From contig NZ_BBYK01000039.1 in assembly GCF_001570365.1 (NCBI RefSeq), positions 310,001 through 374,000 on the forward strand: a stretch of 64,000 bases of DNA, written 5' to 3'. Below are positions 38,514 to 59,927 of this stretch, in pieces. The notes under the pieces were generated by a model, which had not been told where the DNA came from, made no database searches, and saw nothing but the letters and a program-made list of their open reading frames with translations. A program made the position numbers and the translations under genes. This DNA comes from Microtetraspora fusca (lineage in GTDB: Bacteria > Actinomycetota > Actinomycetes > Streptosporangiales > Streptosporangiaceae). The first letter of the stretch is position 1, and each line of letters begins with the position of its first letter.

Positions 38514-38518
38514 GCCAA

Positions 38519-38551
38519 AACGCCGCTTCCTCGATCAAGAGGAGCGGCGTT
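38519..38551. terminator. Hairpin terminator between tRNA-Ala and int
   Basis: AACGCCGCT pairs with AGCGGCGTT, extended by CCTC with GAGG and one bulged T. It can stop both the tRNA transcript and the leftward int operon. A homologue with compensatory changes lies at 53362. Confidence 0.78.
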
Positions 38552-38553
38552 CG

Positions 38554-38573
38554 GGCCATTAGCGGGCCATTAA
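38554..38573. repeat. Left arm-type repeat
   Basis: GGCCATTAGCGGGCCATTAA, two GGCCATTA boxes 11 bp apart, overlapping the int stop. The same pair lies about 100 bp inside each right-hand att core. Likely integrase arm sites. Confidence 0.72.
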
Positions 38574-39736: not shown

Positions 39737-39951
39737 TACGCGGCCCTCCCGCGCTTGGAGGTCACGTCAGTGGCGTGCATCGGCGCGACAGTGCCGGCGA
39801 CGACGAAGGCCATCAGCGCCGACTCGGGGATACGCACGTGTCGGCCGAGCTTGACGAACTCGATCCGCCGTTCTGCGACCAGTCGGCGCACGAACCTGAC
39901 CGACGTGTGGAGAAGGTCCGACGCCTCCTCAACGGTGAGCAGCTTGTCCAT
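39736..39951 (-). CDS. Excisionase, MerR-like HTH
   Basis: A 71-residue protein; the ATG at 39951 has a perfect AGGAGG. The sequence LLTVEEASDLLHTSVRFVRR and GRHVRIPESALMAFV is that of helix_turn_helix_17 excisionases that bend DNA for excision. Its stop overlaps the int start. Confidence 0.9.
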   Translation of the reverse strand: MDKLLTVEEASDLLHTSVRFVRRLVAERRIEFVKLGRHVRIPESALMAFVVAGTVAPMHATDVTSKRGRAA

Positions 39952-39965
39952 GTGGGGCCTCCTCT

Positions 39966-41660
39966 CTACGCGGCTTCCGGAGTTGCCGAAAGTTCTTGTC
40001 CGTCTGCTTGGGCTTGGAGTTGGTTCATGTGGTTGCGCCATCGCTGGCGTTCGTGGACCGACCGCAGGAGCCGAACGCTGATGGGGTCGAGGCCGGGGTC
40101 ACCGGGCTTGACCGTCCGCCAGACATAGCGGTGCGAATCGATCGGCTCGTCTGGCAGGCCGAGGGCTTCCAGGACCCAGGTACGCCGGTCGTGCTTGTGT
40201 TCGGTCAGTGTCTTGTTCGACCACTTCCGCGAGACCAGAACGCGGCGACCGGCGTAGCCGAGGTGTTCAGGCTTGTGCGCCTTGCCCCGGCACCGGCCCG
40301 GGATCATGCCCGACTTGGCCCCCTTGGGCTGGACCCCGTAGCGGAGCCAGTTCGGGCAGGTCGGCGAGCACGGCTCATAGCGGAGGGCGTTGCCGAGGCG
40401 TTCCGCGTGCTCCCGTTGCGCGGAGTCGTCCGGGTCGATCGCGTCCCCGATGCTTTTCGTGAGGTACTTGGACAGGTACCGGATGCACGTGTCGGCATCA
40501 GTGGTCCCGGCCAGTACGCCTTGGACGTCGAGTTGAGGACCGAAGGTCAGCACGTGCAGCGGTTCGGCCTCGTCGTCCTGGTCAAGGTCGTCGAGCGCTT
40601 CATCCCAGGTAGGCAGGACTTCCCCAGTCGTCGGGTCGAGGTAGCCGACCCCATCCGCCCACACCGGCAGGTGATCAGCCTCGAACTTCACCGTGTCGAC
40701 AGACGGCCACCACACTTGGTGGTACGTGGCCGCCGCGATCTGCTTGATCTCCGCACGCGGGAGATGGCCCCGGATGGCCATGTGCAGATGCGGCGCGAGC
40801 CGCTTCTGAGGCTCGACGCTCGCGAAGTACTGGACATCGAACCCGGCGACCCGGCGAAGGTTCTGCACGAACCGGTCCACCAGCTTGGAGAAGTGCAGAG
40901 CGTCCCGAGCCGCCCGCGAATAGTCGTACGTGGCCGGGTCGACGGGCGCGCCGTTCTTCCTGACCCGCCCGTAGGAGGGCAGAGTGAGCGTGATGAACAT
41001 CGACGGCCGGAACGTCTTGCCGTCCGCACCGGTGAAGGTCCGCCCGAGCGTCGTGGCGCTCATGGTTCGCTTGGGCAGGTCCGGCGCGTCCTGTCGCCGC
41101 CTCGTCGAGCGCGACCGCTTACCCGTCGTACGGCCGAGGACGGTGCCACGCATCCCGGCCCGGTTGATCTCGTCGTCCAGGTCGCCTATCGCCGCTTCGA
41201 GGTCGGTCGTGTCTTGGCCGGCCTTTTCCGCCTCATCTCGCCAGGCGTGGGCGTCGGCGCGGAGTTCGACGAGGTAGCGATGATAGTCGTCGGCTTCGTT
41301 CGGGGTGTTGACCGGTTCGTGGTCGAGGTGCCAGCCCTCCCGGCACTGGGCCATACGCAGTTGCCGGTTCCGCTTGGCACACGGCGGGCACTTGCTCTCC
41401 AACGTCGCCCCGCACGGCACGTCAACGGTTTCGACCTTGCCCGTGTAGGTGTCGAGCCGCCGGAGGGCGATGGGGCGGATGCACACGCCGTATTGCTTGG
41501 CGATCTCTTCGACGACCTCACGGGCGAGTGGCTGAGCCATCCGCAGGGCGCGGGGCGTGGCCCGATTGGCGAGCTGGGCTGAGGTTGAGGAGTCGGAGGT
41601 GGGGCCAGGGGAGATCGTGTCGTCTCCCCCGACCTGGTGGGCGTCGGTGGTGTCGGTCAA
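39966..41660 (-). CDS. RepSA-like rolling-circle replication initiator
   Basis: A 564-residue initiator. The TTG at 41660 is chosen for its AAAGGAGG ribosome site. The protein has two CxxC-type zinc sites (CPPCAKRNRQ and CSPTCPNW), the HUH-like metal motif PHLHMAIRGH, and the tyrosine motif YLSKYLTKS. This is the pSAM2 RepSA pattern, nicking at a double-strand origin to replicate the excised circle. The TTG overlaps the stop of the small zinc-ribbon gene. Confidence 0.9.
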   Translation of the reverse strand: MTDTTDAHQVGGDDTISPGPTSDSSTSAQLANRATPRALRMAQPLAREVVEEIAKQYGVCIRPIALRRLDTYTGKVETVDVPCGATLESKCPPCAKRNRQLRMAQCREGWHLDHEPVNTPNEADDYHRYLVELRADAHAWRDEAEKAGQDTTDLEAAIGDLDDEINRAGMRGTVLGRTTGKRSRSTRRRQDAPDLPKRTMSATTLGRTFTGADGKTFRPSMFITLTLPSYGRVRKNGAPVDPATYDYSRAARDALHFSKLVDRFVQNLRRVAGFDVQYFASVEPQKRLAPHLHMAIRGHLPRAEIKQIAAATYHQVWWPSVDTVKFEADHLPVWADGVGYLDPTTGEVLPTWDEALDDLDQDDEAEPLHVLTFGPQLDVQGVLAGTTDADTCIRYLSKYLTKSIGDAIDPDDSAQREHAERLGNALRYEPCSPTCPNWLRYGVQPKGAKSGMIPGRCRGKAHKPEHLGYAGRRVLVSRKWSNKTLTEHKHDRRTWVLEALGLPDEPIDSHRYVWRTVKPGDPGLDPISVRLLRSVHERQRWRNHMNQLQAQADGQELSATPEAA

Positions 41661-41809
41661 CTGTCCTCCTTTCCGATCTCGGGGAAGGTGAGCGCGGTCT
41701 GTCCGCATTCGTGGCACTCGATCAGGCCGCGCACGGGGTCGAGCCACAGCACGTCGAGTACGGAGCAGCCGGAGCAGCGCAGGCCGTGGAGGAGGTGAGC
41801 CAGGGTCAC
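41657..41809 (-). CDS. Small zinc-ribbon protein
   Basis: A 50-residue protein missed by length cut-offs. It has two cysteine pairs, LRCSGC and ECHECGQ, ~20 residues apart, as in a zinc ribbon. Its GTG start overlaps the traSA stop (GTGA) and its stop overlaps the rep TTG, so all three genes are coupled. Similar small genes lie between tra and rep in other AICEs; role unknown. Confidence 0.82.
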   Translation of the reverse strand: MTLAHLLHGLRCSGCSVLDVLWLDPVRGLIECHECGQTALTFPEIGKEDS

Positions 41810-43320
41810 GGTGCCACCTCTCCCACGACCGGCATGCGGGCAGTGACAGGCGTGGTGTCCGGGACAGAGTTCAGGGTCGCCGTATGGTCCGCGACTGGCA
41901 CGGTGTCCACAGCCTGTGCGTACTCGGCGACCATCGCGCGAATGTCGTCGTCGGAGACGTAGGCGGCCCGCACCCGGATCGGGTCGGGTGAGGTTTCGAG
42001 CCGAACGTATCCGACGCCCGCGCCGAGTTCGGGAACCGGTGAGATGTGGTCGGCCAGTGCACCGCGATCACGTGCGCCGTCGCCGAGGACCATGTCGACC
42101 TGTTCGGACTCGTCGAGCCGGAGCGCGATCTTGTCGGGGAACAGGTTGCGGATGTTCATGACTTCCTTGCGCGGGTCCTGCAACGCGGCCATGACTCCGA
42201 CGCCGACCGCCCGTCCTTGGGTGGTGAGCGTGGCGAGTGCGGCCGTGATGCGCTGCTTGAGTGTGCGGTCGGACTGGTAGGCGGTGAGGAACGCGACCTC
42301 ATCGACGAGCACCAGGACGAACGGGTCCGCCACCGTCGGGACGTGGTTGCGCTGCTGTCCGGCGAAGCGTCCGGCGCGTTCCTGCATGACCGTGACGGCC
42401 TGGTCGAGCAGGTCGGCGCACTGCTCGGGGTCGGCCGCGTACCGGGTGAAGAGGTCCCGGCCGAACGAGAGTTCCATCAGTTTCGGGTCGAGTGCCCAGA
42501 GTTCGACCAGGCCCGCCCGCAGCGCGGGGAGTAGGCCGCGGATCGTCGACCAGAGGAACGAGCCTTTGCCGGCCCCGGTCGCTCCCGCGATCAGGACATG
42601 TGTGCCGTGGACCTTGAGCCGGTACGGGGTGCCGTCCTCACGAGCACCGATCTCGACCGGCCCAACCGAGACCACGTCCGGGATCGGGACGGCAGGCAGG
42701 GCAACGGCGAGCGGGTCACGCCGAGGGAAGGTCAGGACGAGGCGACCGGCCCGCGCGATGGAGACGCGGCAGGTTCGGGAGTCGAAGCCGTGGGCGAGTT
42801 GGTCGGTTCGGTCGGCCCAGTCTTTGACCGCTTGGCCGTTGAGCATCTTCACGGTGACGTGGTCGGCCCAGCCGTCGCAGTCGACCCGCACCAGTCGGGG
42901 CAGGTAGTCCCGGCCGCGTAAGTGTCGCCCGAGACCGGAGACGATCATCACGGGTTGCCAGTGACGGCGGTAGATCCAGATCCGTCGCCAGAAGGCGAGC
43001 AGCCGCCAGGCGACCAGCCGCGCGAACGAGGCCCGGTGAAGCGATGCCCAGGACAGGCCCGCCAGGAGGACGAGGCCGACGAGAAGCAGGGCGAGACGCC
43101 AGCCGTACAAGGTCCAGATCACACCGGGTACGGCCGGGCCGGCGACGGCGATCGGGTGCCGCCAGACGATCCGGATCAGGCCCGCGACCAGGCGGGACAG
43201 CCAGATCACGATCGTGACGAACGCCGGGGTCCGGACGACGGCCGGACGGAACACGACAGCGGTGTCGGGTGTGGTGGAGACGAGGTTGCGCGCCTCGTCT
43301 CCGGGAAGCTTTCGGAACAT
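41806..43320 (-). CDS. TraSA/TraB-type FtsK-like DNA translocase
   Basis: A 504-residue membrane ATPase that would move double-stranded DNA between mycelial cells. Membrane helices lie at about residues 33-95. The motor has Walker A HVLIAGATGAGKGS (245-254) and Walker B VLVLVDEVAFL (~335). Like TraSA it is one protein without a type IV system. A ribosome site GAGAGGAAA is upstream. The first gene of the rep-xis-int half. Confidence 0.92.
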   Translation of the reverse strand: MFRKLPGDEARNLVSTTPDTAVVFRPAVVRTPAFVTIVIWLSRLVAGLIRIVWRHPIAVAGPAVPGVIWTLYGWRLALLLVGLVLLAGLSWASLHRASFARLVAWRLLAFWRRIWIYRRHWQPVMIVSGLGRHLRGRDYLPRLVRVDCDGWADHVTVKMLNGQAVKDWADRTDQLAHGFDSRTCRVSIARAGRLVLTFPRRDPLAVALPAVPIPDVVSVGPVEIGAREDGTPYRLKVHGTHVLIAGATGAGKGSFLWSTIRGLLPALRAGLVELWALDPKLMELSFGRDLFTRYAADPEQCADLLDQAVTVMQERAGRFAGQQRNHVPTVADPFVLVLVDEVAFLTAYQSDRTLKQRITAALATLTTQGRAVGVGVMAALQDPRKEVMNIRNLFPDKIALRLDESEQVDMVLGDGARDRGALADHISPVPELGAGVGYVRLETSPDPIRVRAAYVSDDDIRAMVAEYAQAVDTVPVADHTATLNSVPDTTPVTARMPVVGEVAP

Positions 43321-43365
43321 TAGGCTTGGTTTCCTCTCTCAAGCATTCGCGTGTGTGGGAGATCA

Positions 43366-43398
43366 GGGGCCGCCGGAAGGACCAGTTCCAGCGGCCCC
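43366..43398. promoter_or_regulatory. Intra-operon hairpin before traSA
   Basis: A 13-bp stem with one mismatch lies in the 88-bp gap between the 105-residue gene and traSA. It has no T-run; it may be an attenuator or an mRNA-stabilising element that sets a lower level for tra. Confidence 0.5.
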
Positions 43399-43408
43399 GC
43401 TTCATCTC

Positions 43409-43726
43409 TCAGGCCGCCTCACCGGGGACCGGAGACGTGGCCGACTGCTGCTCGTCGTTGTGCAGGCGCTCGCAGTCGGCCAGGTACCGCGCGGCGGCGT
43501 TGAAGATCTGCCGGGCGATGTCGACATCGGTCGTGCTGACCGGCCCTGCTCCGCTGGTCGAGACCGCGATGTCGGCCTCGTTGGACTCGATCGACAGGTA
43601 CGGCCGCCCGGAGTCCAGCACCGAGGCCCCCACCCGCAGATCAGGTGTGTAGAACGAGACCGCGAGCCGGGGCGGCTTGCCCGGATCGATCGACATCGTC
43701 ACGTAGGTGTACGGGGTGCGCTTCAT
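43409..43726 (-). CDS. AICE hypothetical protein
   Basis: A 105-residue protein: PYTYVTMSIDPGKPPRLAVSF, then DIAVSTSGAGPVSTTDVDIARQIF and a Ser/Asn-rich end. It has no recognised domain. The ATG overlaps the stop of the gene upstream. It is part of the pra-traSA leftward operon, and shares an alpha/beta pattern and the phrase DV(E/D)xAR with the next gene, so the two may be diverged paralogues. Confidence 0.68.
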   Translation of the reverse strand: MKRTPYTYVTMSIDPGKPPRLAVSFYTPDLRVGASVLDSGRPYLSIESNEADIAVSTSGAGPVSTTDVDIARQIFNAAARYLADCERLHNDEQQSATSPVPGEAA

Positions 43727-43998
43727 CAGGCCGCCACCCCTCGACCGTCCGGAAGGCCGTGGAACATGCGCTCCACCGACCGGGCGAACGAGGCCGCCTC
43801 ACGCGCCAGAACTCGCGCGAACTCAACGTCCTCGGCGGTGACGTGGTCGGCGGCGGAGGTGGTGACGAGCACCTGAACTCCGCCGAAGACCAGCCCCAGC
43901 ACCGGGGAGCGCTGCGGGTACGGGTGGTTGACCGCCGAGGCGCCCGGACCCGTCTTGAGGCTGATCGTGCTCACCGGGTGAGCCGCCCGCCGCCGCAT
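43726..43998 (-). CDS. AICE hypothetical protein
   Basis: A 90-residue protein: VFGGVQVLVTTSAADHVTAED, then EFARVLAREAASFARSVERM. Both its start and stop overlap neighbours by ATGA. Its pattern of a strand followed by 'TAEDVEFAR' resembles 'STTDVDIAR' in the downstream protein. Function unknown. Confidence 0.68.
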   Translation of the reverse strand: MRRRAAHPVSTISLKTGPGASAVNHPYPQRSPVLGLVFGGVQVLVTTSAADHVTAEDVEFARVLAREAASFARSVERMFHGLPDGRGVAA

Positions 43999-44411
43999 CA
44001 CGCCGCGTCCTTCGCGCTCGCGGCGGCCTTGCCCATCCGAACGGCGCGCATTTCGCGGACCCGGATCGAGTACGCCAGCCGGTTGGTGTTGCTGTTGACG
44101 TACGGCGTGACCGTGACGCCGTCGAACTCGACCGGCGTGAACGGCACCCCCGGCACCGGGGCCGGCGGAACCGGCTGCACTGCGGCGAGGATCTTCACCG
44201 CCACCGTCTTCTGTGACGGCTTGAGCGTCGGGTCCGCGTCCATCACGGCGACCTGCCAGACCAGTTCCCTTGTCTGCTTGTCGCGGGCCTGGACGAAGCG
44301 GCCGTTGGTCGAGGCGTCGAAGTCCTTGACCGCCTCGACCTCGCCCACCAGGTAGCAGCCGTGCGGGAACACCATGTCGAACGTGACCGGGATAGGTCCC
44401 TGTAGAGCCAT
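43998..44411 (-). CDS. Pra-like replication/integration/excision activator
   Basis: A 137-residue protein: PIPVTFDMVFPHGCYLVGEVE, then WQVAVMDADPTLKPSQKTVAVKI and PFTPVEFDGVTVTPYV. This is the family annotated in AICEs as activator of replication, integration and excision (Pra of pSAM2 type). It is first in the leftward operon, with GAGGAGG upstream and a region of repeated operators just beyond. It is probably the switch for the whole element. A relic of its start lies at 54646. Confidence 0.84.
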   Translation of the reverse strand: MALQGPIPVTFDMVFPHGCYLVGEVEAVKDFDASTNGRFVQARDKQTRELVWQVAVMDADPTLKPSQKTVAVKILAAVQPVPPAPVPGVPFTPVEFDGVTVTPYVNSNTNRLAYSIRVREMRAVRMGKAAASAKDAA

Positions 44412-44435
44412 GTCGTGTACCTCCTCTTCTGTCGA

Positions 44436-44535
44436 CCCCCCTAGACATTTCGGCTGCGTCTCGCCCTGCGCGAGAACTGTCTAGGGGGCTATGCGGATGA
44501 CGATAGCTCCGTCCTACCCCAACTGTCTAGGGGGG
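44436..44535. promoter_or_regulatory. Operator cluster upstream of pra operon
   Basis: Three copies of TGTCTAGGGGG(C/G): one reversed at 44436-44447 and two forward at 44478-44489 and 44524-44535. Related boxes lie at 46922-46961 and 47722-47739 before the regulatory genes. It fits one repressor binding all AICE promoters. The rest of the 228-bp gap is AT-richer and holds the divergent promoters. Confidence 0.68.
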
Positions 44536-44639
44536 TAAACATAAGAGCGGTCCGATCGCTTGTGAAGAAATTGCGCAAAAGACGTGAATATCTCTGCTTG
44601 AGAATGGCGGCCCCTCTTCAGCTCTAGGAAACTGCGCCC

Positions 44640-45230
44640 GTGCCCCCCATGCCGAAGACTGCCCGATCACCCAAGCGGCCCCTCTTCATAGCGTTGCTCG
44701 GCTGGTTCCTGCTGACCGCTGCGTCCTATCTGTGGATACCGATGTTTAGGGTGATCGGGCCGCTCAACAGGCTTGTGCTCCTGGCGCTTTGGATATGGGT
44801 CATCCGCTCAACCTTCACTGCGGTGGCTTCCTGCCTCTCGCTCAAGGCCTACGCCCGAGCTTTCACCACACTGGTGATCGTGCTGACCATTGGCCCAGCC
44901 ATCTGGTGGGCTGACTGGAAAGCCATCTATGTGGATAGCCAGTTCTGGTTGCATCGTGAGGAGTTCGCCGCTCTCGTCGATGCCCATGAGAACCACCGGC
45001 CGCTCATCGTGCCCTGGTGGATGGAGTACCTGTCGATAGACGGTCAAGTGCGGCAGCAGGGACAGACTCTCTACCTTCCGGTGTTCGAAGATCCCTGGCG
45101 CTCGGAAACCGGTGCTGGGATCGCTTACCTGCCGGGCACGCCGGATTCCCAGACAATCGTTCAGACCGCTGCCGGTGATATGGGCAGTCCAGTTCGTGAC
45201 CTTGGGAGCGGCTGGTGGTGGGTGGAGTAG
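44640..45230 (+). CDS. Membrane protein, hypothetical
   Basis: A 196-residue protein, GTG at 44640 (ATG at 44649 possible; no ribosome site). Three hydrophobic helices lie in LFIALLGWFLLTAASYLWI, NRLVLLALWIWVIR and TTLVIVLTIGPAIWW, followed by a soluble Trp-rich domain. It is divergent from the pra operon and convergent with the PP2C gene. Its base use is less GC-rich than its neighbours. Its place is that of transfer/spread (Spd-like) genes in other AICEs, but no similarity is claimed. Confidence 0.58.
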   Translation: MPPMPKTARSPKRPLFIALLGWFLLTAASYLWIPMFRVIGPLNRLVLLALWIWVIRSTFTAVASCLSLKAYARAFTTLVIVLTIGPAIWWADWKAIYVDSQFWLHREEFAALVDAHENHRPLIVPWWMEYLSIDGQVRQQGQTLYLPVFEDPWRSETGAGIAYLPGTPDSQTIVQTAAGDMGSPVRDLGSGWWWVE

Positions 45231-45233
45231 GGA

Positions 45234-46055
45234 TCAGACACCGCAGTATGCGGCCGTGGCATCGTCAAACACCTTGCCCCGAGGCCAGCGCTTGCCATTG
45301 AGGTCGGACCGTTCTGCATCGCGGACCCGGCGGACAAGTTCGGCGGGGCCGCCCTGGGCGAGGATGTCGAGGGCTTGCCGCCAGGTGGCGAGTCCGAAGC
45401 GGTCGACGAGGCGGGATGCGCCATCGCTGAGGAGCGCCGCCGCGCGAACCTGGTCAGCGGGGAGTGTTCCTGTGAGCGCTTGTTCTGCGACGAGGGGGTC
45501 GGATGAGGCGACCCAGAATCCGCCGTCGCGGTTGCGGTGCGCTCGCATGGCTTCCACGTACGTCCGCAGAGCGGCGGTGTGATCGGTAGTGCCAGAGTCG
45601 AGCGCATCCATGGCCGTCCGGTAACGCTTGCCTACCTGGCCTTCCCGGTCGTCGGTGATGACCACCGGATCCTCTGTACCGATCACGTCGAGCACGAGGA
45701 CAGAGTCTGCCAAGACGAGATAGTCCAGATCGTCACCGGTACGGCGGAGCATGACGACGGTGGCGGAAGGTGAGCCGGGATGGTTCACGTCGCAGGTGAA
45801 GTCATGCAGCGACGTTGCGGCCTTGATGCACTCCGCCAGGATTTCGGTCAAGGTGCCGGCGCTTTGCGTCAGAGATGCGATCAGTATTGAGCCGAGGGTT
45901 CGCGCGTACCAGGCCACTCCGTGGGAGCATCCAGATTCCGAGCCCGCAGGCGTACCCGCGCCATCCAGGAGGACCACGGCATCCGGGATCGCGGCGATGA
46001 AGTCCTCGTTGGGCCGGTCAGGGGATGCGGGTTCGGTGGCGAAGGTGACGTGCAT
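45234..46055 (-). CDS. PP2C-like protein phosphatase
   Basis: A 273-residue protein with PP2C features: NEDFIAAIPDAVVLLDGAGTP (metal Asp), SPSATVVMLRRTGDDLDYLVLADS, RAAALLSDGASRLVD and KVFDDATAAYC (final Asp). The start overlaps the HTH regulator stop (ATGA). It may dephosphorylate a Ser/Thr target in the AICE regulatory block. A 25-nt piece of it is repeated exactly at 61609. Confidence 0.8.
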   Translation of the reverse strand: MHVTFATEPASPDRPNEDFIAAIPDAVVLLDGAGTPAGSESGCSHGVAWYARTLGSILIASLTQSAGTLTEILAECIKAATSLHDFTCDVNHPGSPSATVVMLRRTGDDLDYLVLADSVLVLDVIGTEDPVVITDDREGQVGKRYRTAMDALDSGTTDHTAALRTYVEAMRAHRNRDGGFWVASSDPLVAEQALTGTLPADQVRAAALLSDGASRLVDRFGLATWRQALDILAQGGPAELVRRVRDAERSDLNGKRWPRGKVFDDATAAYCGV

Positions 46056-46894
46056 CAGGTGTCCTCGTGGCGGTAGAGCGGACTGGCGAGTTCCGCTGTA
46101 ACCGGTTCCCCCGTCTCCAGGTCGTATTCGACGCCGACCACAGTGGAGAAGCGCCCGTCCCCAGCTTGCCCCCACAGGGTGGCGATCTCGGTGGTGATGA
46201 GCTGGACGACGCCGAGGGTTCCTTGCGGGTGGATGCCGGTGAAGACCAGGACGTTGCCCTTGCCGTCCGGCCGGGGCAGCCGACCCAGGTACGCGTAGTC
46301 GACCGGGCGGGCCGGGTCGCTGTCGGAACCCGAGCGGTAGGTCGTGCCGGTACGGGTGTCACGGAGGGTCCAGGCGCCGTCCTTGACCCACTCCAACACG
46401 GGATCAGTCTCGTACAGCCCTCCCATGACGGGGGAGAGCTTGGGTCCGCAGATCACGATGAGGTTGGGCCGGTTGAGGTCGATCTCGCCGCCGAGGGGGA
46501 CGTGTTCGAGCTCCATTGACAGGCCGAAGCCGCGCGCGAGGTCTTCCAGCCGCTTTGCGGCAGCGACGTCTTCCATCGCGACCACGGGCCGGGCGTTGGT
46601 GGCCTCGCGCTTGAGCGGGGTGGCCAGGGTGATGGTGCCGGTGCCGAGGAAAGCGCCCTCAGGTGCCGGGCCGGTGTGGCGGATATGGTGGATACGGCCA
46701 CGGGTGAGCCCAGCCGCCTGGGCGATCTGCGCATAGGACATGCCTTGCGCGTGCAACTCTTGGATCACACGACGGCGGAGTCGAGCAAGTTCGGTGACCT
46801 CTTGCTGAGCGGCGTTGAGCCGTTCGGTGGCGGTCCGTAGCAGCAGGTACGGATCGTCGATGGCGGCTATGCGCTCAAGGTCGTTCGGTGGCAT
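46055..46894 (-). CDS. HTH transcriptional regulator with large C-terminal domain
   Basis: A 279-residue protein; the ATG at 46894 has GGGGGAG. The first ~85 residues hold a helix-turn-helix (MSYAQIAQAAGLTRGRIHHI). The remainder is a soluble domain (LNRPNLIVICGPKLSPVMGG, then GRLPRPDGKGNVLVFTGIHP) I cannot name. CCCCCTAGAC boxes lie just upstream, so it is a good candidate to bind the AICE operators and autoregulate. Confidence 0.7.
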   Translation of the reverse strand: MPPNDLERIAAIDDPYLLLRTATERLNAAQQEVTELARLRRRVIQELHAQGMSYAQIAQAAGLTRGRIHHIRHTGPAPEGAFLGTGTITLATPLKREATNARPVVAMEDVAAAKRLEDLARGFGLSMELEHVPLGGEIDLNRPNLIVICGPKLSPVMGGLYETDPVLEWVKDGAWTLRDTRTGTTYRSGSDSDPARPVDYAYLGRLPRPDGKGNVLVFTGIHPQGTLGVVQLITTEIATLWGQAGDGRFSTVVGVEYDLETGEPVTAELASPLYRHEDT

Positions 46895-46921
46895 TGCTCC
46901 CCCTGGGTTGAACTCCGCTGA

Positions 46922-46961
46922 GTCTAGACCCCTGGACAGAATGCCGTCGATCCCCCTAGAC
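46922..46961. promoter_or_regulatory. Operator boxes upstream of the HTH regulator
   Basis: GTCTAGACCCC (46922-46932) and CCCCCTAGAC (46952-46961) are 30 bp apart, and match the CTAGACA/TGTCTAGGGGG boxes before pra. Confidence 0.55.
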
Positions 46962-47031
46962 GGTATGACTTCGCCTGTTTTGGGATTCGTTGCCCGTATG
47001 GCGGAGCGTCGGTTGGGGACACCGCGAGGGC

Positions 47032-47304
47032 TCATCTCGCCCGTCCGGCCATGATGTCCGCCCAGACCTCGCGGGCCTGCCGGAGCGGCCAGCGGTTCGT
47101 CTCAACGATCGAGACCGGAGTTCCCTGGATGGTGCGCCGGATGAAGCCGACGCCGGCCATCTCGTACAGCTCGTAGAACCGGGCCGTGCAGTCACACGTC
47201 CACGCCACCACCCGGCACCGGTCGCCGGATACGAACTCGAACCATTGCAGCTCGCGGCAGTTGGGCTGAGGCAACGACAGGTGCGGTGCGACGCAGTCGC
47301 TCAT
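47032..47304 (-). CDS. Cysteine-containing small protein
   Basis: A 90-residue protein, ATG overlapping the ATPase stop. It reads NCRELQWFEFVSGDRCRVVAW, then WTCDCTARFYELYEMAGVGF and RWPLRQAREVWADIMAG. A CxC pair may bind metal. Proteins like this often follow RsbW-like ATPases in actinomycetes. No function is known. Confidence 0.65.
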   Translation of the reverse strand: MSDCVAPHLSLPQPNCRELQWFEFVSGDRCRVVAWTCDCTARFYELYEMAGVGFIRRTIQGTPVSIVETNRWPLRQAREVWADIMAGRAR

Positions 47305-47708
47305 CTGCCGGTCGCCATGGCGGTGGCGGGGTCGAGGACGGCCCACACGGTCCGGCCGTTGTGGTCGCCCAGGACGCCCCAGCCGGTGGCGAGGGTGGAG
47401 ACGAGCATGAGGCCGCGCCCTCCTTCGGCCTCTTCGTAGGCGGGGAGCAGTTCCGGAGAGCGGGGGCCGCCCTCGTCGGCGACGCCGAGCCACAGCCGCC
47501 GATGGTTGACGCGGATCGTGACGATGAACAGCCCGCCGAACCGGCCGCTGGCCGAGTGTCGTACGGCGTTGGTGGCCAGTTCGCTCACGATGAGTTCGGC
47601 CGATTCCAGGGACGGCCAACCCTTCAAGAAGGTGGTGACGAAGCGGCGGGCTTCGGTGATCGAGGCGGGGGAGCCGAGGAAGTGGCGGGACATTCGCCAG
47701 CCTGACAT
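47301..47708 (-). CDS. RsbW-like ATP-binding regulator (AICE)
   Basis: A 135-residue HATPase_c_2 protein. N box: LIVSELATNAVRHSASG; G1 region: LWLGVADEGG; G2: EGGRGLMLVSTLATGWG. It is probably an anti-sigma or anti-regulator kinase. With the PP2C and the XRE-DUF5753 protein it makes a phospho-switch module inside the element. An 18-bp inverted repeat is directly upstream. Confidence 0.85.
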   Translation of the reverse strand: MSGWRMSRHFLGSPASITEARRFVTTFLKGWPSLESAELIVSELATNAVRHSASGRFGGLFIVTIRVNHRRLWLGVADEGGPRSPELLPAYEEAEGGRGLMLVSTLATGWGVLGDHNGRTVWAVLDPATAMATGR

Positions 47709-47721
47709 GGGCGTACTCCTG

Positions 47722-47739
47722 TGTATAGGGGGCTATACA
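47722..47739. promoter_or_regulatory. Inverted-repeat operator before the AICE ATPase
   Basis: TGTATAGGGGGCTATACA, 7-bp perfect arms around GGGG, ends 14 bp upstream of the start. It shares TNTAGGGGGCTAT with the box at 44478. Confidence 0.66.
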
Positions 47740-47811
47740 TGCATGTCGGCAGCGTATGACCAACGCTAGAAGCTACTCAAGGCATTCGACGTATAAATGC
47801 GCCAGAACTGG

Positions 47812-48651
47812 CTACTTGCTCGCGAGAGCGCGGTAGTCCGCCCCGATCTGCCCCAGAAGATCCCGCAGGGCATCGTCATACACAGCGGCAGCCGCGAACG
47901 CCTCGAAGACATCCATATGCGTGTCGATCTCGCCGGTCTCCGTCAGGGTGAGATCACCCGTCAGGCTCTCGACCACGCTCACCGAACCGTCGAAAATCGT
48001 GAACCCGTGGAGAGGGAAGGCCGGCGCTTCCACGCTCCAGGGCACGACCCCCAGGCGCACATGGGGAAGCGTGGACACCTGGGTAAGCCGGTCAAGCTGC
48101 GCCGGCATCAACGACGGCGATCCCGGCCACGTCCGCACCGCGCCCTCCGTCAGCACGAACGCGAACTTCCGACCAGGCTCGAACACGACGGCCTGAGACT
48201 CGACCCGTACGGCCGCCGCCTTGGCCGCGTCCTCTGGGTCCACATCCTGGCCGATCGAGAGAGCGAGCCGGGCATATTCGGCCGTCTGCAACAGCGGCGG
48301 AATCATCGCCGAGGAGAACACGGCCATCCATTGAGCCGAGCGAACCCGTGCGGCGTTCGCCGCCTCTCGACCGGCAAGCCCACTCTTCAACCGGGACACC
48401 TCATCACGCAGCCGCAGCAGCAGCGCGTCCAACTCACGCCGCCTGTCCTCGTCGAGGGTAAGCGCCGCGGATACCCGCTCAACCGTCTCCGGAGTCGGCA
48501 GCAATCGCCCGGTCTCCATCCGAGAAATCGTCGGCTGAGCCACCCCGGCCCGCTGCGCCAGGTCCTTACCAGTCAGCCCCGCATCCTTACGCAGCCGCCG
48601 CAGCAGCTCCCCCAGCTCCCGCAACCGATCCCGCCGCTCCTCCATGACCAA
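47812..48651 (-). CDS. XRE-DUF5753 regulator
   Basis: A 279-residue regulator (ATG 48651; 48645 possible). The N-terminal XRE HTH is LTGKDLAQRAGVAQPTISRME; a DUF5753 domain follows with FSSAMIPPLLQTAEYARLAL and LPHVRLGVVPW. DUF5753 proteins pair with DUF397 proteins, but no DUF397 gene lies in the element. It is the last leftward gene in the element. Confidence 0.9.
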   Translation of the reverse strand: MVMEERRDRLRELGELLRRLRKDAGLTGKDLAQRAGVAQPTISRMETGRLLPTPETVERVSAALTLDEDRRRELDALLLRLRDEVSRLKSGLAGREAANAARVRSAQWMAVFSSAMIPPLLQTAEYARLALSIGQDVDPEDAAKAAAVRVESQAVVFEPGRKFAFVLTEGAVRTWPGSPSLMPAQLDRLTQVSTLPHVRLGVVPWSVEAPAFPLHGFTIFDGSVSVVESLTGDLTLTETGEIDTHMDVFEAFAAAAVYDDALRDLLGQIGADYRALASK

Positions 48652-49376
48652 CGGTCTACCACCGGACGTAGACAGCTCGGCCGATCATTGCCGAATTGAG
48701 CTTTTAAGGATCAAGGGCGGCGCTCCGCGCCGCCTCGCGGCCCTACGCCCGCTCGGCGGCCGAGCATGCGGCCTGGGGGCCGGTCCCGGCCGCCGGCAGC
48801 TCGGGCCGCCCACCGCACGCCTATCACGCCACAACCAGCGCCCTCACCGCTCACATTGCCGCGCCGTCGCGAGGAAGGAGCCACCGCGCGCTACCGGACT
48901 CGAACCGGCTCACCCCAATTACCGGGAAACGAACGCACAGGGCGTTGGCCTGAACTCCCATTCAGCATTTGCCCGCGGCGGCACGAAAAGCGTACGGCGA
49001 CATAGGGCTGATGTCGAAGAATTAGCCTCCGGCGGGGCCTCGGCTCCGGGATGATCGCCCGGCCGTGAGCCCAAGTCCGTAGCTGGCTGAGGTGGGAGCC
49101 TGATCGTCCCGCCCGCCACGACCCAGGCAAGCCCAGCAGACCGACTCCTACGGCTCAAGCCCGTCTGTGGCCGTTGGCGTCCGATGATCGAGGAATGGGG
49201 ACCGGCTCGCGTACACGCGAAGACGGGCTTGCCCCTCCGTCGCCGGCCCGCTGCCGCTTCGCGGTGGGTCGAGGCATACGGGACGATCAGGGGGAAGGCG
49301 TGCGCGGGCGCGCCACTCTCCTTGCCTTCTCAGCCGTAAGCCGTCAGATTGCTTTCAGACCTTCGAGAGGAGTTAG
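48652..49376. other. Gene-poor region of the AICE
   Basis: A 725-bp GC-rich stretch. I see no credible coding frame; open frames on both strands have random composition. The sequence at 49087-49110 recurs in similar form at 56440-56463 in the decayed unit. It may hold an origin or regulatory DNA. Confidence 0.5.
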
Positions 49377-49826
49377 ATGACCGAGGCATCTGCATCAAGG
49401 CCGAAAAAGCGGTCGCTACGTAAACCGGTGCTCTTGGTGCTGGCCGTCGTCATTGTGCTCCTTGCGGGGTTGGCTCTCTTCAACCGCGATGATTACGAGC
49501 AGGCCGATCTTCCGTTCATCGTCAAGCAGATCCAGGAGCACAAGGTCTGGAGCGCCACTGTTCGTGACAAGGAACAGCGCATCGAGATCACCATGATCGA
49601 CGGCAAGCGCTTCCAAGCCGAGTGGGAGAAACCCGACAAGGCGAGAGAGCTGACTGACGCCCTGCGGAAAGCCGAGCCCAAAAGCGGATACACCATCGAA
49701 GTGTCGACGACCCGGCTCCTGCTCGGTCCCTTTGAGATCTTCGTGGGAGCGGTTCTAGCTGCGGTTCTAGTTGCGGTTCTAGTTGCAGTTTCACGCCGTC
49801 TGAGGCGGTTCCAGAAGGACCGCTGA
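49377..49826 (+). CDS. FtsH extracellular-domain-like membrane protein
   Basis: A 149-residue protein, ATG with GAGGAG. Membrane helices at ~19-36 and ~118-138 bracket a domain (YEQADLPFIVKQIQEHKVWSA, then QRIEITMIDGKRFQAEW) that resembles the extracellular FtsH_ext domain without the protease. The second helix is coded by three 12-bp tandem repeats (49749-49784), giving AVLAAVLVAVLVAV. It may bind or mimic FtsH; this is inference. Confidence 0.66.
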   Translation: MTEASASRPKKRSLRKPVLLVLAVVIVLLAGLALFNRDDYEQADLPFIVKQIQEHKVWSATVRDKEQRIEITMIDGKRFQAEWEKPDKARELTDALRKAEPKSGYTIEVSTTRLLLGPFEIFVGAVLAAVLVAVLVAVSRRLRRFQKDR

Positions 49827-49891
49827 GCGCCGCTGGTCCTGGTGGAACAGATCGGGACGGGCAAGATCCGAGCTGCTAATGCGGTTTGGCT

Positions 49892-49911
49892 GTACAGCCA
49901 CGAGTACAGCC
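49892..49911. repeat. Arm-type repeat of a second element
   Basis: GTACAGCC occurs twice, 12 bp apart, about 100 bp before a 3' tRNA fragment. The layout copies that of the GGCCATTA pair and the tRNA-Ala cores, so it may be the arm site of another integrase. Confidence 0.45.
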
Positions 49912-49993
49912 AAGGGGCGAGCGACGGCGGAACTCGGCGGACGTCCACGGACACCGCACCCGCAGGTCGGAGCCTCGGACCTCGATCGAATCG

Positions 49994-50041
49994 ACTTCTT
50001 TAATCTGTAGGTTCAGGGTTCGAATCCCTGGCGCCCCACCA
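49994..50041 (+). pseudogene. 3' half of a tRNA (not Ala), att-like scar
   Basis: A T-arm (CAGGG, TTCGAAT, CCCTG), acceptor half GCGCCCC, discriminator A and encoded CCA are intact, with part of an anticodon arm upstream (CTTTAATCTG). There is no 5' half. It matches no tRNA in this window, and its identity is uncertain (Lys-like). Confidence 0.72.
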
Positions 50042-50159
50042 TCAATGAGCTGGGCAGACTCCCGAATGGTGATCTTTCGGAAGGCTGCCCGGTTGCAGTT
50101 GTGCGCTTGTCTGTTCAGTCGGCCCACAGCGCGCGGCCAAGCAAGAGGAGAATGCATGA

Positions 50160-50732
50160 ATGCATACAGCCCCTTGGATGGTCCTCATTGGTCCGGCCGC
50201 AGCAGGGAAGAGCACACTCGGTGACGGACTGGCCTCAGCGACAGGGCGAAGTTTTCTCGACGTTGACACCCTTGGCGAGACCTATTACGCCGAAGTGGGA
50301 TGGAACATGGACAAACTGCGTGACCGAATCCAGGCCGTGGGCCGAGTGGCAGCCGAGCAGGAGTGGGAACCTGCGCGCGCTCATGCCGTGGAACGCATTG
50401 TCGCTGACCACCCCGGAACGATCATTTCCCTGGGAGCCGGCCACAGCCACTACACGCAATCTGAACTGTTCCAGCGTGTTCAGGCTGCCCTTCGCTCTGT
50501 CAACCATGTGGTGCTTGTACTGCCCTCCCCTGACCATGAACGATCCGTCCAGGTCCTGCGACAGCGCAGCCTCGCCACGAAGGGGACCAACTGGATCAGC
50601 AGGGACGGGCACGACTTCCTCTACCAGTGGGTACACGATCCGGGAAATCACGCTCTTGCGACGACGGTCCTCTATACCGAGGGTGACGAACCTGCGCAGA
50701 GCATCAGTCGCCTCATAACCATGTGCGACTGA
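50160..50732 (+). CDS. P-loop kinase, shikimate-kinase-like
   Basis: A 190-residue protein, ATG with AAGAGGAG. The P-loop is MVLIGPAAAGKSTLGDGLA, followed by FLDVDTLGETYYAEVGW and TIISLGAGHSHYT, the shikimate/gluconate-kinase pattern (LxDxD and GGG-like strand). The lid is VLRQRSLATKGTNW. Likely phosphorylates a small molecule; substrate unknown. It is AICE cargo near attR. Confidence 0.8.
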   Translation: MHTAPWMVLIGPAAAGKSTLGDGLASATGRSFLDVDTLGETYYAEVGWNMDKLRDRIQAVGRVAAEQEWEPARAHAVERIVADHPGTIISLGAGHSHYTQSELFQRVQAALRSVNHVVLVLPSPDHERSVQVLRQRSLATKGTNWISRDGHDFLYQWVHDPGNHALATTVLYTEGDEPAQSISRLITMCD

Positions 50733-51120
50733 CCTCAAATGGGCCTGGATGGAACCAAACGCCTGCCAGCCGCACCGCCCATGGCCTGGCCGCCCGCGCG
50801 CGGAGTGTAGATCCGGAACATGCTCGGAATGATCTTGGCCAAGCCTCAGATGCCTGAAAGCCACGCGCAGGTCGACACGGTCTCACAACAAGAAACGGCG
50901 ATCCACTTCTAATCCGATGCCCTTTGTCCTCCTCGCTGCGTGAGTGTCCCGGCCGTGCCCGCCGAGTCAAGGGCGCCTGCGGCGTCGCTTCGCGATCAAC
51001 TTCGTTGACCCCTGACACGGCGGTCCCGTCCTGGGGGTCGGCAGCTACGAGGAGGACGGGGGCGGACCAGGGGACGGGCTGCGCATGGCACGCCGCCGCA
51101 GATCGCGAGCGTGATCGCCG
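50733..51120. other. Gene-free stretch before attR
   Basis: No gene found. The last ~80 bp (from 51041) are also present, diverged, at 60503, where they again precede arm repeats. Confidence 0.5.
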
Positions 51121-51184
51121 GGCCATTAGCGGGCCATTAAGGGCGGTCAACAGGGGGCACTCACGGTCACTCGCGGAGTGCCCC
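51041..51184. repeat. Right-end repeat copy A (arm sites and hairpin)
   Basis: GGCCATTAGCGGGCCATTAA at 51121-51140 is followed by a 9-bp perfect hairpin, GGGGCACTC with GAGTGCCCC (51154-51184). Related blocks lie at 52209, 53209 and 60503. They are likely integrase arm sites with a structured element. Confidence 0.8.
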
Positions 51185-51224
51185 TCGCCCAGGTCACGGC
51201 CGTTTCCCCTGCAGATCAGGCCGA

Positions 51225-51267
51225 TTTGCAAGCAGGATGTCAGGAGTTCGAATCTCCTAGGCTCCAC
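51225..51267 (+). repeat. att core copy 2 (attR of the AICE)
   Basis: 43 nt identical to the 3' end of tRNA-Ala from TTTGCAAGCAGG to GGCTCCAC, then T in place of C. Confidence 0.93.
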
Positions 51268-51274
51268 TCATAAG

Positions 51275-51313
51275 AAAGCCCAGGTGAGGGATAGTTTCCC
51301 CGACCTGGGCTTT
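51275..51313. terminator. Terminator next to att copy 2
   Basis: AAAGCCCAGGT pairs with ACCTGGGCTTT, 11 bp, with T-rich sequence on both sides. It ends the leftward toxin transcript and rightward reading from att. Confidence 0.82.
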
Positions 51314-51375
51314 GATTTTGGCGATCGATAGCGACAGATCGTCGGCTAGGACAAGCGGCCTCGGGACAGGATTCC

Positions 51376-51798
51376 TTACTCGCCATCCCACTGTGGCCGG
51401 GTAACCGGAACCACTGTGAGCAAGTGATCCAGCCCTTTGAAGTCCTTCGGGTTGCATGTGTAGAGCGGCAGGCGGTTCGCGATGGCGACACAGGCGATCA
51501 TGAGATCCGCCGTCCGGGGACGTGGGTTGCGGCCTGAGGAGATGACAGCGGTCCAGAGTTGGCCGTACTCGCGGGCGGCGGTCTCGTCGAAGGGGAGGGG
51601 GTCGAACTCGGCCTCGGCTGCCTGCAGGATCTTCATTCGCTGAGCGAGTTCTTGCGGTCCGGACGCCACCAGCACGCCGACCGACAACTCTGCGGTGGTG
51701 ATGGCGCTGATCATCATCTCGTCGGGTAGCTCATCCGGGTCGATCCCAGCCCGCAGGATGAGGATGTTGGTGTCGAGCAGCCCTTGATTAGGGGTCAT
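51376..51798 (-). CDS. PIN-domain toxin (VapC type)
   Basis: A 140-residue PIN ribonuclease: first Asp in QGLLDTNILILRA, Glu in TTAELSVGVL, then RTADLMIACVAIAN and TCNPKDFKGL. All acidic residues expected for Mg binding are present. Its start overlaps the antitoxin stop by ATGA. VapC toxins cut tRNA or rRNA; the target here is unknown. It is cargo of att cassette 1. Confidence 0.9.
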   Translation of the reverse strand: MTPNQGLLDTNILILRAGIDPDELPDEMMISAITTAELSVGVLVASGPQELAQRMKILQAAEAEFDPLPFDETAAREYGQLWTAVISSGRNPRPRTADLMIACVAIANRLPLYTCNPKDFKGLDHLLTVVPVTRPQWDGE

Positions 51799-52115
51799 TC
51801 CCCGTCCTCTGTGAACTCGCCCCTGCCGTAGGCGCGATCGTACGGGTCGTAGAGATCGTCATTGACGTGACGGTCCATATCCTTGCGGTACTTCCGGTCG
51901 TCCAAACGGGGCATGCCGCGGGACATCGCCACGAATTCGGCACGTGACACGGCCCGGCGTCGGCGCCGAATAGGGACCAGATCGCCGATGTGGTGGCCAT
52001 TGCGGGTGACGGCGTACCGCTCCCCGCGTTCCAGCCCATCCATGATCTCCGCGGAGCGGTTACGCAGGTCGCGTTGAGAGATCTGGTGGGAGGGGTCAGG
52101 TTCAGAGATGCTCAC
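51795..52115 (-). CDS. Phd/YefM-type antitoxin
   Basis: A 106-residue antitoxin. HQISQRDLRNRSAEIMDGLERGERYAVT and NGHHIGDLVPI (quoted in part) form the Phd/YefM DNA-binding fold; the Arg- and Asp-rich tail would wrap the toxin. It lies upstream of and overlaps the PIN gene, the usual antitoxin-first order. Confidence 0.88.
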   Translation of the reverse strand: MSISEPDPSHQISQRDLRNRSAEIMDGLERGERYAVTRNGHHIGDLVPIRRRRRAVSRAEFVAMSRGMPRLDDRKYRKDMDRHVNDDLYDPYDRAYGRGEFTEDGE

Positions 52116-52208
52116 CCCTCAAGTCTATGTCCGTGTGCTACGACGTGCTACTAAGTGGCACATCTCCGCCACTCGACTTCGTTGAGGCAGGTTGCGGCTT
52201 GATCGCGA

Positions 52209-52272
52209 GGCCATTAGCGGGTCATTAAGGGCGGCCAACAGGGGGCAGTCACGGTCACTCACGGACTGCCCC
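52209..52272. repeat. Right-end repeat copy B
   Basis: The arm pair (52209-52228, one base changed) plus the hairpin GGGGCAGTC with GACTGCCCC (52242-52272). Relative to copy A two stem bases have changed on each side and pairing is kept. Confidence 0.8.
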
Positions 52273-52312
52273 TCGCCCAGGTTGCGGCCGTCATCCCAGA
52301 AGATCGGCCCGA

Positions 52313-52356
52313 TTTGCAAGCAGGATGTCAGGAGTTCGAATCTCCTAGGCTCCACC
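52313..52356 (+). repeat. att core copy 3
   Basis: 44 nt, identical to the tRNA-Ala 3' end. Confidence 0.93.
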
Positions 52357-52363
52357 GCACGTC

Positions 52364-52397
52364 AAAGGCCACTTCCCATGATCAGGAAGTGGCCTTT
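52364..52397. terminator. Terminator next to att copy 3
   Basis: AAAGGCCACTTCC pairs with GGAAGTGGCCTTT, 13 bp, 8-nt loop. Sequence is unrelated to the hairpins at the other att copies but at the same place. Confidence 0.84.
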
Positions 52398-52490
52398 CGA
52401 TCTTGTGAGGTGGCGAAGTGCGGAACCGACGCAGGGGCAATCGGCCTCCGGCGGATTGCGTTTCCGCTATCAACAGGCCGGTTCTGAAAG

Positions 52491-52850
52491 TCACCCTGCC
52501 TTGAGGAACTGCTCGAATGCTTCTCGGGCCAGTGCGGACACCGTCTTACCCTCTTGCTCGGCTCGAGCCTTCGCGCGTTCGCGTAGTTCTTCGGGTACCC
52601 GGAAGGAGACCCTTGGTGAGTGCGTCCCTTCGCGTGTCAGTGAGGGACGCCCGCCGCGGCTGGTCGGGACGGGTACGCGGCCCTCATCGATCGCATGGTG
52701 AACATCGGCGATCGCATCATCCACATACTTGTCGGTGATCCGATTGCCCTTGCTGTCGTAGATCTCTTCGACGTCACTGTCGATCTCGGAGTCGTGATCC
52801 AGGACCAACTCGATGTCGTCGGGCGGCCACGCTTCTCGGTGCTCGGTCAT
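52491..52850 (-). CDS. Ribbon-helix-helix antitoxin
   Basis: A 119-residue protein. The C-terminal SPRVSFRVPEELRERAKARAE then GKTVSALAREAFEQFL is a CopG/Arc-like RHH domain. The acidic N-terminal half (DDIELVLDHDSEIDSDVEEIYD) would neutralise the toxin. The order is toxin first, as in BrnT-BrnA; the genes overlap by ATGA. Confidence 0.8.
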   Translation of the reverse strand: MTEHREAWPPDDIELVLDHDSEIDSDVEEIYDSKGNRITDKYVDDAIADVHHAIDEGRVPVPTSRGGRPSLTREGTHSPRVSFRVPEELRERAKARAEQEGKTVSALAREAFEQFLKAG

Positions 52851-53092
52851 GGCTTCCTCCTCCTCAACGCGGTCGGCATCACGTGAATGATCACCAGGTA
52901 CTTATCGGTGAGGATGCCGATCACTTCCAGTTCGACGCCCCTATCATCTGGGCCGATCCATACCCATCGGTCCTCCAAGTTAGGGTCGGCAGCCGGAACG
53001 ATGGCCGGCGGTCCGGATCGAACCACGTGAAGAGCACGCGCCTGCCCGATGCGGTGCTTGCGTGCCGACCGGTAGAAGCGCAACTTCCTCAT
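52847..53092 (-). CDS. BrnT-like toxin
   Basis: An 81-residue basic protein (ATG 53092; ATG 53098 possible). The sequence RKLRFYRSARKHRIGQARAL resembles the K/RH-helix of BrnT, and RWVWIGPDDRGVELEVIGIL plus LVIIHVMPTALRRR the RelE-like sheet. A TAATAT box sits just before the start, so the mRNA may be leaderless. The family assignment is tentative. Confidence 0.64.
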   Translation of the reverse strand: MRKLRFYRSARKHRIGQARALHVVRSGPPAIVPAADPNLEDRWVWIGPDDRGVELEVIGILTDKYLVIIHVMPTALRRRKP

Positions 53093-53208
53093 GCCCATAT
53101 TATGTCCGACACAACCACGATGGATAGGGCGTTCCGCAGACAGGCGCACATGGTGGGCGTGCGTGTCCCGGTGGTGACTCGGGATCCGCGCGGCTGAGCT
53201 GATCGTCG

Positions 53209-53272
53209 GGCCATTGGCGGGCCATTAGGGGCGGTCAACAGGGGGCAGTCACGGTCACTCACGGACCGCTCC
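53209..53272. repeat. Right-end repeat copy C
   Basis: Arm pair 53209-53228 (one base changed) plus the hairpin 53242-53272, here with one G-U pair and one mismatch. Confidence 0.76.
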
Positions 53273-53311
53273 TCGCCCAGGTCGCGGCCATCCCCCTGAA
53301 GATCAGGCCGA

Positions 53312-53355
53312 TTCGCAAGCAGGATGTCAGGAGTTCGAATCTCCTAGGCTCCACC
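53312..53355 (+). repeat. att core copy 4
   Basis: 44 nt, one change (C for T at the third base, in the former anticodon). Similarity to attL extends on through the hairpin to about 53395. Confidence 0.92.
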
Positions 53356-53361
53356 AGCCAA

Positions 53362-53394
53362 AACGCCGCTTTCCCGATCAAGGGAAGCGGCGTT
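53362..53394. terminator. Terminator next to att copy 4
   Basis: AACGCCGCT with AGCGGCGTT, extended by TCCC with GGGA and a bulged T, the same plan as 38519-38551 with compensating changes. Confidence 0.78.
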
Positions 53395-53410
53395 CGTGCC
53401 ATTAGCTTGC

Positions 53411-53512
53411 GGCCACAGCCTTCTGAGCCCTTGCGCTCAGCTTCCACCCGGGCGCTCAGCGCATCAGCGATCTCCTGATCAAGGTCGCGCGTCGCGTGCT
53501 GGTAGATCAACC
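53411..53512 (-). pseudogene. Integrase C-terminal remnant
   Basis: About 27 codons homologous to the end of the AICE integrase: LIYQHATRDLDQEIADALS and ARVEAERK, including the catalytic Tyr. Homology stops abruptly at ~53512, where the kinase-like gene ends. The original stop is lost by a frameshift. Confidence 0.9.
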
Positions 53513-54607: not shown

Positions 54608-54645
54608 TGGCAGGTACCCCTCTGATCAACTTCGCGTGTTAGACG

Positions 54646-59839: not shown

Positions 59840-59927
59840 TACGGCCTCGGTCCCGTACCGAACGCGCCGAGGCGCCGGCCACTACGACGAGCTACGCCGG
59901 CACACCTCGGTGATGGTCACGTGCTCA

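Follow-up and report, generated by a model that had tools for sequence, protein, structure and literature searches.

Integrase-less toxin–antitoxin cassettes with chimeric ends at a tRNA-Ala gene: possible passengers of actinomycete integrative elements

The window analysed here, a stretch of 64,000 nucleotides from the 9.02-Mb genome of Microtetraspora fusca (G000:C38:310001-374000), contains a tRNA-Ala(TGC) gene followed on its 3' side by an actinomycete integrative and conjugative element (AICE) and then by two small units, cassette 1 (1088 bp) and cassette 2 (999 bp). Each lies between tRNA-derived cores and holds one toxin–antitoxin (TA) operon. Comparison with related genomes supports well the view that an integrase-less cassette of ~1 kb has spread as a discrete unit. 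On balance, we lean towards reading both cassettes as passengers similar to cis-mobilizable elements (CIMEs), which arose by deletion fusion and ride in cis on AICEs instead of excising on their own.

The 40-bp core occurs four times in the window without a mismatch, at 38472, 51228, 52316 and 53315, and in none of 100 shuffles. Both cassettes follow one plan: core, hairpin, single TA operon, right-end arm sites and core. Both operons run leftward with their genes overlapping by 4 bp, both left hairpins fold far better than shuffled sequence, and no match to Int, Xis, Rep or FtsK was found in either cassette. The original prediction of two integrase-less TA units of ~1 kb, bounded by tRNA-Ala att cores, is thus borne out. 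In cassette 1, a PIN-domain toxin gene adjoined by an antitoxin gene points to a VapBC (PIN-domain TA) system; the antitoxin scores 20.6 bits against TIGR01552 (cut-off 20.8). The toxin of cassette 2 resembles BrnT weakly and has no NCBIfam match, and its partner is a ribbon-helix-helix antitoxin.

Chimeric ends and discrete spread

The right ends of the AICE, cassette 1 and cassette 2 share a 159-bp arm-hairpin-core string that is 89-91% alike, in which the GGCCATTA arm pair stands at a near-constant distance from the core. At the left end of the AICE, the GGCCATTA arm pair (38554-38572) lies 42 bp beyond the core; it was not found at the left end of cassette 1 or 2 with up to 4 mismatches (repeat with up to 3). 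Both cassettes therefore have cores at both borders and right arms, and lack the left arm pair.

The source of the left ends became visible in relatives. Four arm families occur at the same tRNA gene, A (GGCCATTA), B (GTGCCCG), C (TACAGCA) and D (GAGTGAC), each with a distinct left hairpin and a distinct integrase. Cassette 1 has the family B hairpin at its left end: core and hairpin match, at 97.9% over 95 bp, a unit of genome G003 in which B arms accompany a glyoxalase-like gene. In cassette 2 this place is taken by the family C hairpin, which in G003 precedes C arms and an integrase (type C element, L045). Because their left ends come from family B or C and their right ends from family A, the cassettes are evidently chimeras, B/A in cassette 1 and C/A in cassette 2. 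The earlier claim that the ends match those of the adjacent AICE therefore stands for the right ends and fails for the left, which have hairpins of families B and C and no GGCCATTA arms.

An alignment of 34 right ends (A1) revealed further strongly conserved type A blocks around GGGCGGTCAACAG and TCACGGTCACTCGCGG. In the type A right-end hairpin, the stem bases seemingly change in pairs.

Complete copies of cassette 2, from core to core, occur in G041, G025 and G079 (1004, 995 and 1001 bp), and partial ones in G001, G002 and G003. As a yardstick of chromosomal identity we used gyrBA, recognised from translations. Cassette 2 is 94.9% identical between G000 and G025 and 94.7% between G000 and G079, versus 88.0 and 88.2% for gyrBA; the corresponding values are 93.5 versus 88.0% for G041-G025, 93.4 versus 88.1% for G041-G079 and 98.3 versus 92.2% for G025-G079. 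In all five of these pairs above gyrBA, homology ends no more than 9 bp from both cores. The chromosome upstream of the tRNA is less alike than the cassette (78.8% for G000-G025, 80.0% for G000-G079, 78.5% for G041-G025 and 85.1% for G025-G079), so that between genus g23 and genera g1/g39 the figures run 93-95% for cassette 2, 88% for gyrBA and 79-80% for the chromosome flanking the tRNA. The toxin and antitoxin genes are 97.1-98.3% identical between G000 and G025 or G079. Around the four full copies, flanks within 2.5 kb (1.05 kb left of the G025 copy) share only end sequences of up to ~300 bp; farther out, the AICE and other array segments are common to G000 and G041. G025 has a VapBC relative of cassette 1 in its third unit, and in G041 cassette 1 is cleanly missing, leaving a core-to-core junction.

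In the partial copy of G002 (L043, reverse strand, 7063-7714), the antitoxin gene has been kept and the toxin gene lost, which may fit an antitoxin outliving its toxin.

We compared borders in units below 3 kb from different genomes, with lengths within 150 bp of each other and one alignment over 70% of both. Among 16 such pairs, both borders lie within 13 bp of the core borders in eight, and one pair extends beyond them (G000-G041, close relatives); the remaining seven start 175-313 bp inside on the left, six of them being comparisons of C-left with B-left BrnTA lineages. Two further units gave results like those for cassette 2. A VapBC cassette found in two species of one genus (G240 and G265) aligns from core to core, with 4 bp more, over 1145 bp at 98.4% identity, against 93.7% for gyrBA, and outside it the two genomes have only cores and end sequences in common. 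A 1.25-kb unit in two genera (G181 and G130) is 91.5% identical against 84.8% for gyrBA; the G130 copy contains a short integrase remnant. A second BrnTA lineage, 83-93% alike, is found with a B-type left end in G062, G098, G202, G194, G138 and G067, and with a D-type left end in G193.

Units and cargo at the same core in relatives

A core scan allowing up to 3 mismatches, in which a single match could be merely the tRNA gene, found the core in at least 82 of 200 genomes of the family, which would be Streptosporangiaceae, to which Nonomuraea and Planotetraspora belong. DNA like the cassettes or their ends was found in at least 112 of 341 genomes (E 1e-20), with two candidate places scored per genome and more in a few rich in matches. 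The right-end string occurs in 28 stretches, including records of Nonomuraea, Microbispora, Planotetraspora and Acrocarpospora; two are from Prauserella, a genus of another family. In both Prauserella stretches (L152 and L165), the type A right-end string stands beside a tRNA-Gly-like core.

Listing what lies between copies, as the original prediction had proposed, yielded 96 distinct core intervals, of which 53 are units below 2.5 kb with mixed cargo. Loci were chosen by close cores or TA-gene matches, making this a non-random sample; one locus (L067), which duplicates L071, was left out, and sequence duplicates were removed before clustering. Units sharing 45% of the shorter one were merged, the first serving as representative, and a cluster was called integrase-bearing if any member had a match (L127 was so counted on a 24% match). 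The short units fall into 39 clusters; an integrase match was found in one or more members of 14, and in no member of the other 25. In keeping with the original prediction, many integrase-less units thus exist in other genomes, TA ones included, and the TA genes also occur outside elements with an integrase. Stretches free of cores also hold these TA types (12 of 18 VapBC and five of 13 BrnTA loci among the matches listed).

Arm sites differ between the two kinds of interval. Where an integrase match of at least 190 aa is present, left arms occur in 12 of 12 intervals and the same arm family at both ends in ten, the two exceptions being L074, a B/A unit whose integrase is truncated, and L121, where right arms were not found. 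The 25 integrase-free clusters comprise 11 with right arms only, six with different types at the two ends, four with the same type, four with none and zero with left arms only. Among 11 short units with VapBC or BrnTA, right arms occur in ten and left arms in one.

A notion that TA operons are the sole cargo had to be rejected: sister units contain glyoxalase-like, response-regulator, MFS, epimerase, GNAT, APH, SUKH, HIT, CBM2 and LysR-type genes. Nor are TA operons the rule that the original prediction expected, since Pfam TA families appear in four of the 39 short-unit clusters, with three more possible (a subset of open reading frames, ORFs, was scanned). Other TA-type cargo by Pfam comprises PIN, and Gp49 plus HTH; DUF433, nucleotidyltransferase and DUF6247 genes in sister units are, we assume, further possible TA cargo. 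The Pfam scan of 28 sister-unit ORFs gave no family for eight.

A second array lies in the same genome at a tRNA-Gly(CCC) gene with four cores (L010, G000:C37:600000-619900, 5225-18280). It has arm pairs TGCCATTA, TGCAATTA and GGCCATTA and integrase-like fragments at left ends. Its cargo, read from translations, looks like glycosyltransferase, carbonic anhydrase and mannosyltransferase rather than TA.

Proposed carriage in cis and other routes

How might such cassettes arise and move? Because their ends are chimeric, we infer an origin by deletion fusion, in which deletions running from one tRNA-Ala element, with a family B or C left end, into a type A right part would have made them. The end sequences match the integrase-bearing families A, B and C, and no direct ancestor was found. 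A deletion series illustrates the process: a 4730-bp VapBC unit with a truncated integrase (L074) and a 2476-bp unit with integrase scraps (L073) are 94-96% alike, a pair consistent with shrinkage in which VapBC was kept, and the chimeric ends would fit deletions reaching into a neighbouring element.

With a type A right end retained in each cassette, three right ends (51228, 52316 and 53315) would be open to the AICE integrase as partners for the left end of the AICE. The AICE would then excise alone, with cassette 1 or with both cassettes, and what is excised would move together into another tRNA-Ala gene. Later exit of the AICE via its own right end would leave a cassette behind at the tRNA, where its left hairpin probably serves as the tRNA terminator. 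Pairing with any type A right end would account for a right end that is kept, a left end of any family, a hairpin at each left end and the position of cassette 2 directly at the tRNA in G025. The carrying route is inferred; both the array position and the discrete spread fit cis movement by accretion. There is a described parallel: the Frankia AICE Fean6303 is reported to excise by recombining attR with one or the other of two left sites, and tandem Frankia AICEs to be excised both separately and jointly (PMC3218068). TA addiction may favour retention of the cassettes, although other cargo is also common.

Several observations weigh against carriage in cis, or against the transfer on which it builds. 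The case is made by comparing sequences, and no excision, circle or transfer was observed. For G000-G041 and G041-G001, cassette 2 is less alike than gyrBA (95.0 vs 96.0% and 93.9 vs 95.5%), and vertical descent explains these pairs equally well. Cassette 1 at full length is nowhere else among the matches listed for the 341 genomes, two candidates having been scored in each; G125, G105 and G337 have its core, left end and VapBC at 78-80% and do not share its right end. The second BrnTA lineage falls below gyrBA in ten of ten Microbispora pairs (83.0-92.8 vs 94.7-98.4%), is near gyrBA for G062 and exceeds it in five of six pairs with G194, a pattern that does not clearly indicate recent transfer. 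Nor were the integrases of the presumed carriers found in every host. At E 1e-60, none of type A turned up in G002, G079, G098 or G240, and G025 has only relatives elsewhere in the genome (62% over 375 aa, 68% over 191 aa). Likewise, no type C integrase was found at E 1e-50 in G265, which has the C-right VapBC cassette; G240, with the same cassette, has one at 84% on another contig, between two cores. Finally, the excess of right over left arms is weakened as proof of selection. Because left arms stand on the core side of the integrase gene, next to it, loss of a whole integrase tends to take them too; the bias is partly geometric, and clusters with an integrase match lack it (right only in three, left only in two).

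The original prediction had each cassette mobilised in trans, the AICE integrase excising it alone as a small circle and inserting it elsewhere. The discrete, core-bounded spread and the right arms in both cassettes agree with this, and for the four of 25 integrase-free clusters with matching arms at both ends the route is plausible. Tyrosine integrases of this type, like those of pSAM2 and lambda, are expected to require arm sites on both flanks of the circle. The window cassettes have right arms only, making lone excision doubtful: both lack type A left arms, whereas each of the 12 units whose integrase match reaches 190 aa has left arms, and a lone circle would carry a one-armed attP. For these two cassettes we regard movement in trans as unlikely.

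Quite unlikely, too, is homologous recombination, by which array segments would be swapped after chromosome transfer through crossing over within the repeats formed by right ends and cores. Within the array, right-end strings of 159 bp that are 89-91% alike could indeed delete or duplicate units. Between genomes, however, the stretch shared by G000-G025, G000-G079 and G240-G265 reaches just 3-9 bp past the left core, and as the neighbours differ, 43-49 bp of homology is left on that side. That the units are plain deletion scars, immobile remnants of old elements inherited vertically, is very improbable: the integrase matches in 14 of 39 clusters, the L074-L073 series and the array segments shared by G000 and G041 (gyrBA 96%) are all as expected of scars, but the same chimeric junctions recur in g1/g39 and g23 at an identity above that of gyrBA and of the flank at the same locus and beside different neighbours, which already contradicts this explanation for cassette 2.

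Neighbouring elements and comparison with known systems

The coordinates of the cassettes and their neighbours are listed in Table 1. The element next to the tRNA has the make-up of an AICE, with an integrase, Xis, a RepSA-type replication initiator and an FtsK-like transfer gene between att sites. Inside it, a tRNA-Lys-like 3' end (49988-50040), which we take to be from tRNA-Lys, lies just before a shikimate-kinase-like gene (50160-50732) and is possibly the att site of another element. Beyond cassette 2, positions 53355-60650 form a decayed element that closes with a right-end-like string (arms 60577-60595, 3 mismatches) with no core after it; its part at 56.9-59.9 kb is 92% like a unit of G041.

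Table 1 Features of the tRNA-Ala array, in window coordinates.
Feature	Position	Strand	Evidence
Intact tRNA-Ala(TGC), integration target	38438..38513	+	ARAGORN; holds first core copy
AICE, type A	38469..51267		left arms 38554-38572, right arms 51121-51139
Tyrosine integrase, type A (AICE)	38570..39736	-	Phage_integrase 62.4 bits
Core, AICE right end and cassette 1 left border	51228..51267	+	core search
Left hairpin, cassette 1	51275..51313		fold z -4.11; matches type B left hairpin, arms absent
VapC-like PIN-domain toxin, cassette 1	51376..51798	-	PF01850 35.3 bits, cut-off 23.6; PDB 3dbo_B E 1.3e-15
Phd/VapB-like antitoxin, cassette 1 (GTG start, overlaps toxin by 4 bp)	51795..52115	-	PF02604 21.0 bits, below cut-off 29.8
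Right arm pair, cassette 1, type A	52209..52227	+	1 mismatch
Core separating cassettes 1 and 2	52316..52355	+	core search
Left hairpin, cassette 2	52364..52397		fold z -7.28; matches type C left hairpin, arms absent
Ribbon-helix-helix antitoxin (BrnA-like), cassette 2	52491..52850	-	PF07878 (RHH_5) 26.0 bits, at cut-off 26
BrnT-like toxin, cassette 2 (weak assignment)	52847..53092	-	PF04365 18.8 bits, cut-off 34.5; PDB toxin 9sdc_C E 0.62, not significant
Right arm pair, cassette 2, type A	53209..53227	+	1 mismatch
Core, cassette 2 right border	53315..53354	+	core search
Type A left end of decayed further element, with 80-bp integrase 3' remnant	53355..53509		81-94% to AICE left end

The closest known counterparts are CIMEs, described as elements that have lost integration and transfer genes, keep attL and attR and move by accretion (PMC5704250, PMC7563491). 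Classical CIMEs of Streptococcus salivarius measure 1.2-13 kb (PMC7563491), so small size alone is not new and the earlier description of the cassettes as far smaller than streptococcal CIMEs does not hold. Like these, the cassettes have no recombinase or transfer genes, have att cores at both borders and stand in tandem accretion with integrase-bearing elements. Unlike streptococcal CIMEs as described in those reports, they combine ends from different integrase families, lack left arms, hold one TA operon each and include a unit traced across genera. We therefore class them as units that probably work like CIMEs, with an incomplete left att site.

Accretion of AICEs is itself known: in Streptomyces, several AICEs and a remnant lie between identical repeats at one tRNA gene (tRNA-Arg), and cis-mobilization of tandem defective elements has been suggested; the one-operon TA cassettes and the cross-genus unit set the present array apart from that case as described (PMC9513070). 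The ssrA islands of Dehalococcoides also stand in tandem between RNA-gene repeats, 15 of them without an integration module and possibly cis-mobilizable, and differ, in the account given, by their serine recombinase, their reductive dehalogenase cargo and their phylum (PMC3146451). Actinobacterial TA cassettes of a single operon and of this form did not appear among the titles and abstract openings listed for open-licence papers; they may be in print elsewhere.

Superintegrons store small TA cassettes in an array as well, by means of attC sites and one integron integrase. The array shares the small TA cassettes with them and differs in that its cores derive from a tRNA gene and four or more integrase families are involved. 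Its borders are 40-bp tRNA-Ala cores (no search for attC structures was made), and the AICE integrase scores 25.2 bits against an integron-integrase cut-off of 265. It is tempting, if still doubtful, to see the tRNA-Ala locus as an integron-like cassette store without attC, in which cassettes of one operon, each supplied with its tRNA terminator and an att site that is one-sided, collect behind a common core; four or more integrase families would bring them in and rearrange them, and TA operons would help to keep the array.

One tRNA gene serves here as an exchange point common to four integrase families, and the cassettes offer single TA operons a possible route into many genomes. CIMEs tend to be regarded as leftovers in decay; in this case a unit of ~1 kb that lacks an integrase and has chimeric ends has spread between genera with its borders exact. 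This suggests that a right-end att site and a core may suffice to ride on an AICE, and the array would be a simple system for testing cis-mobilization.

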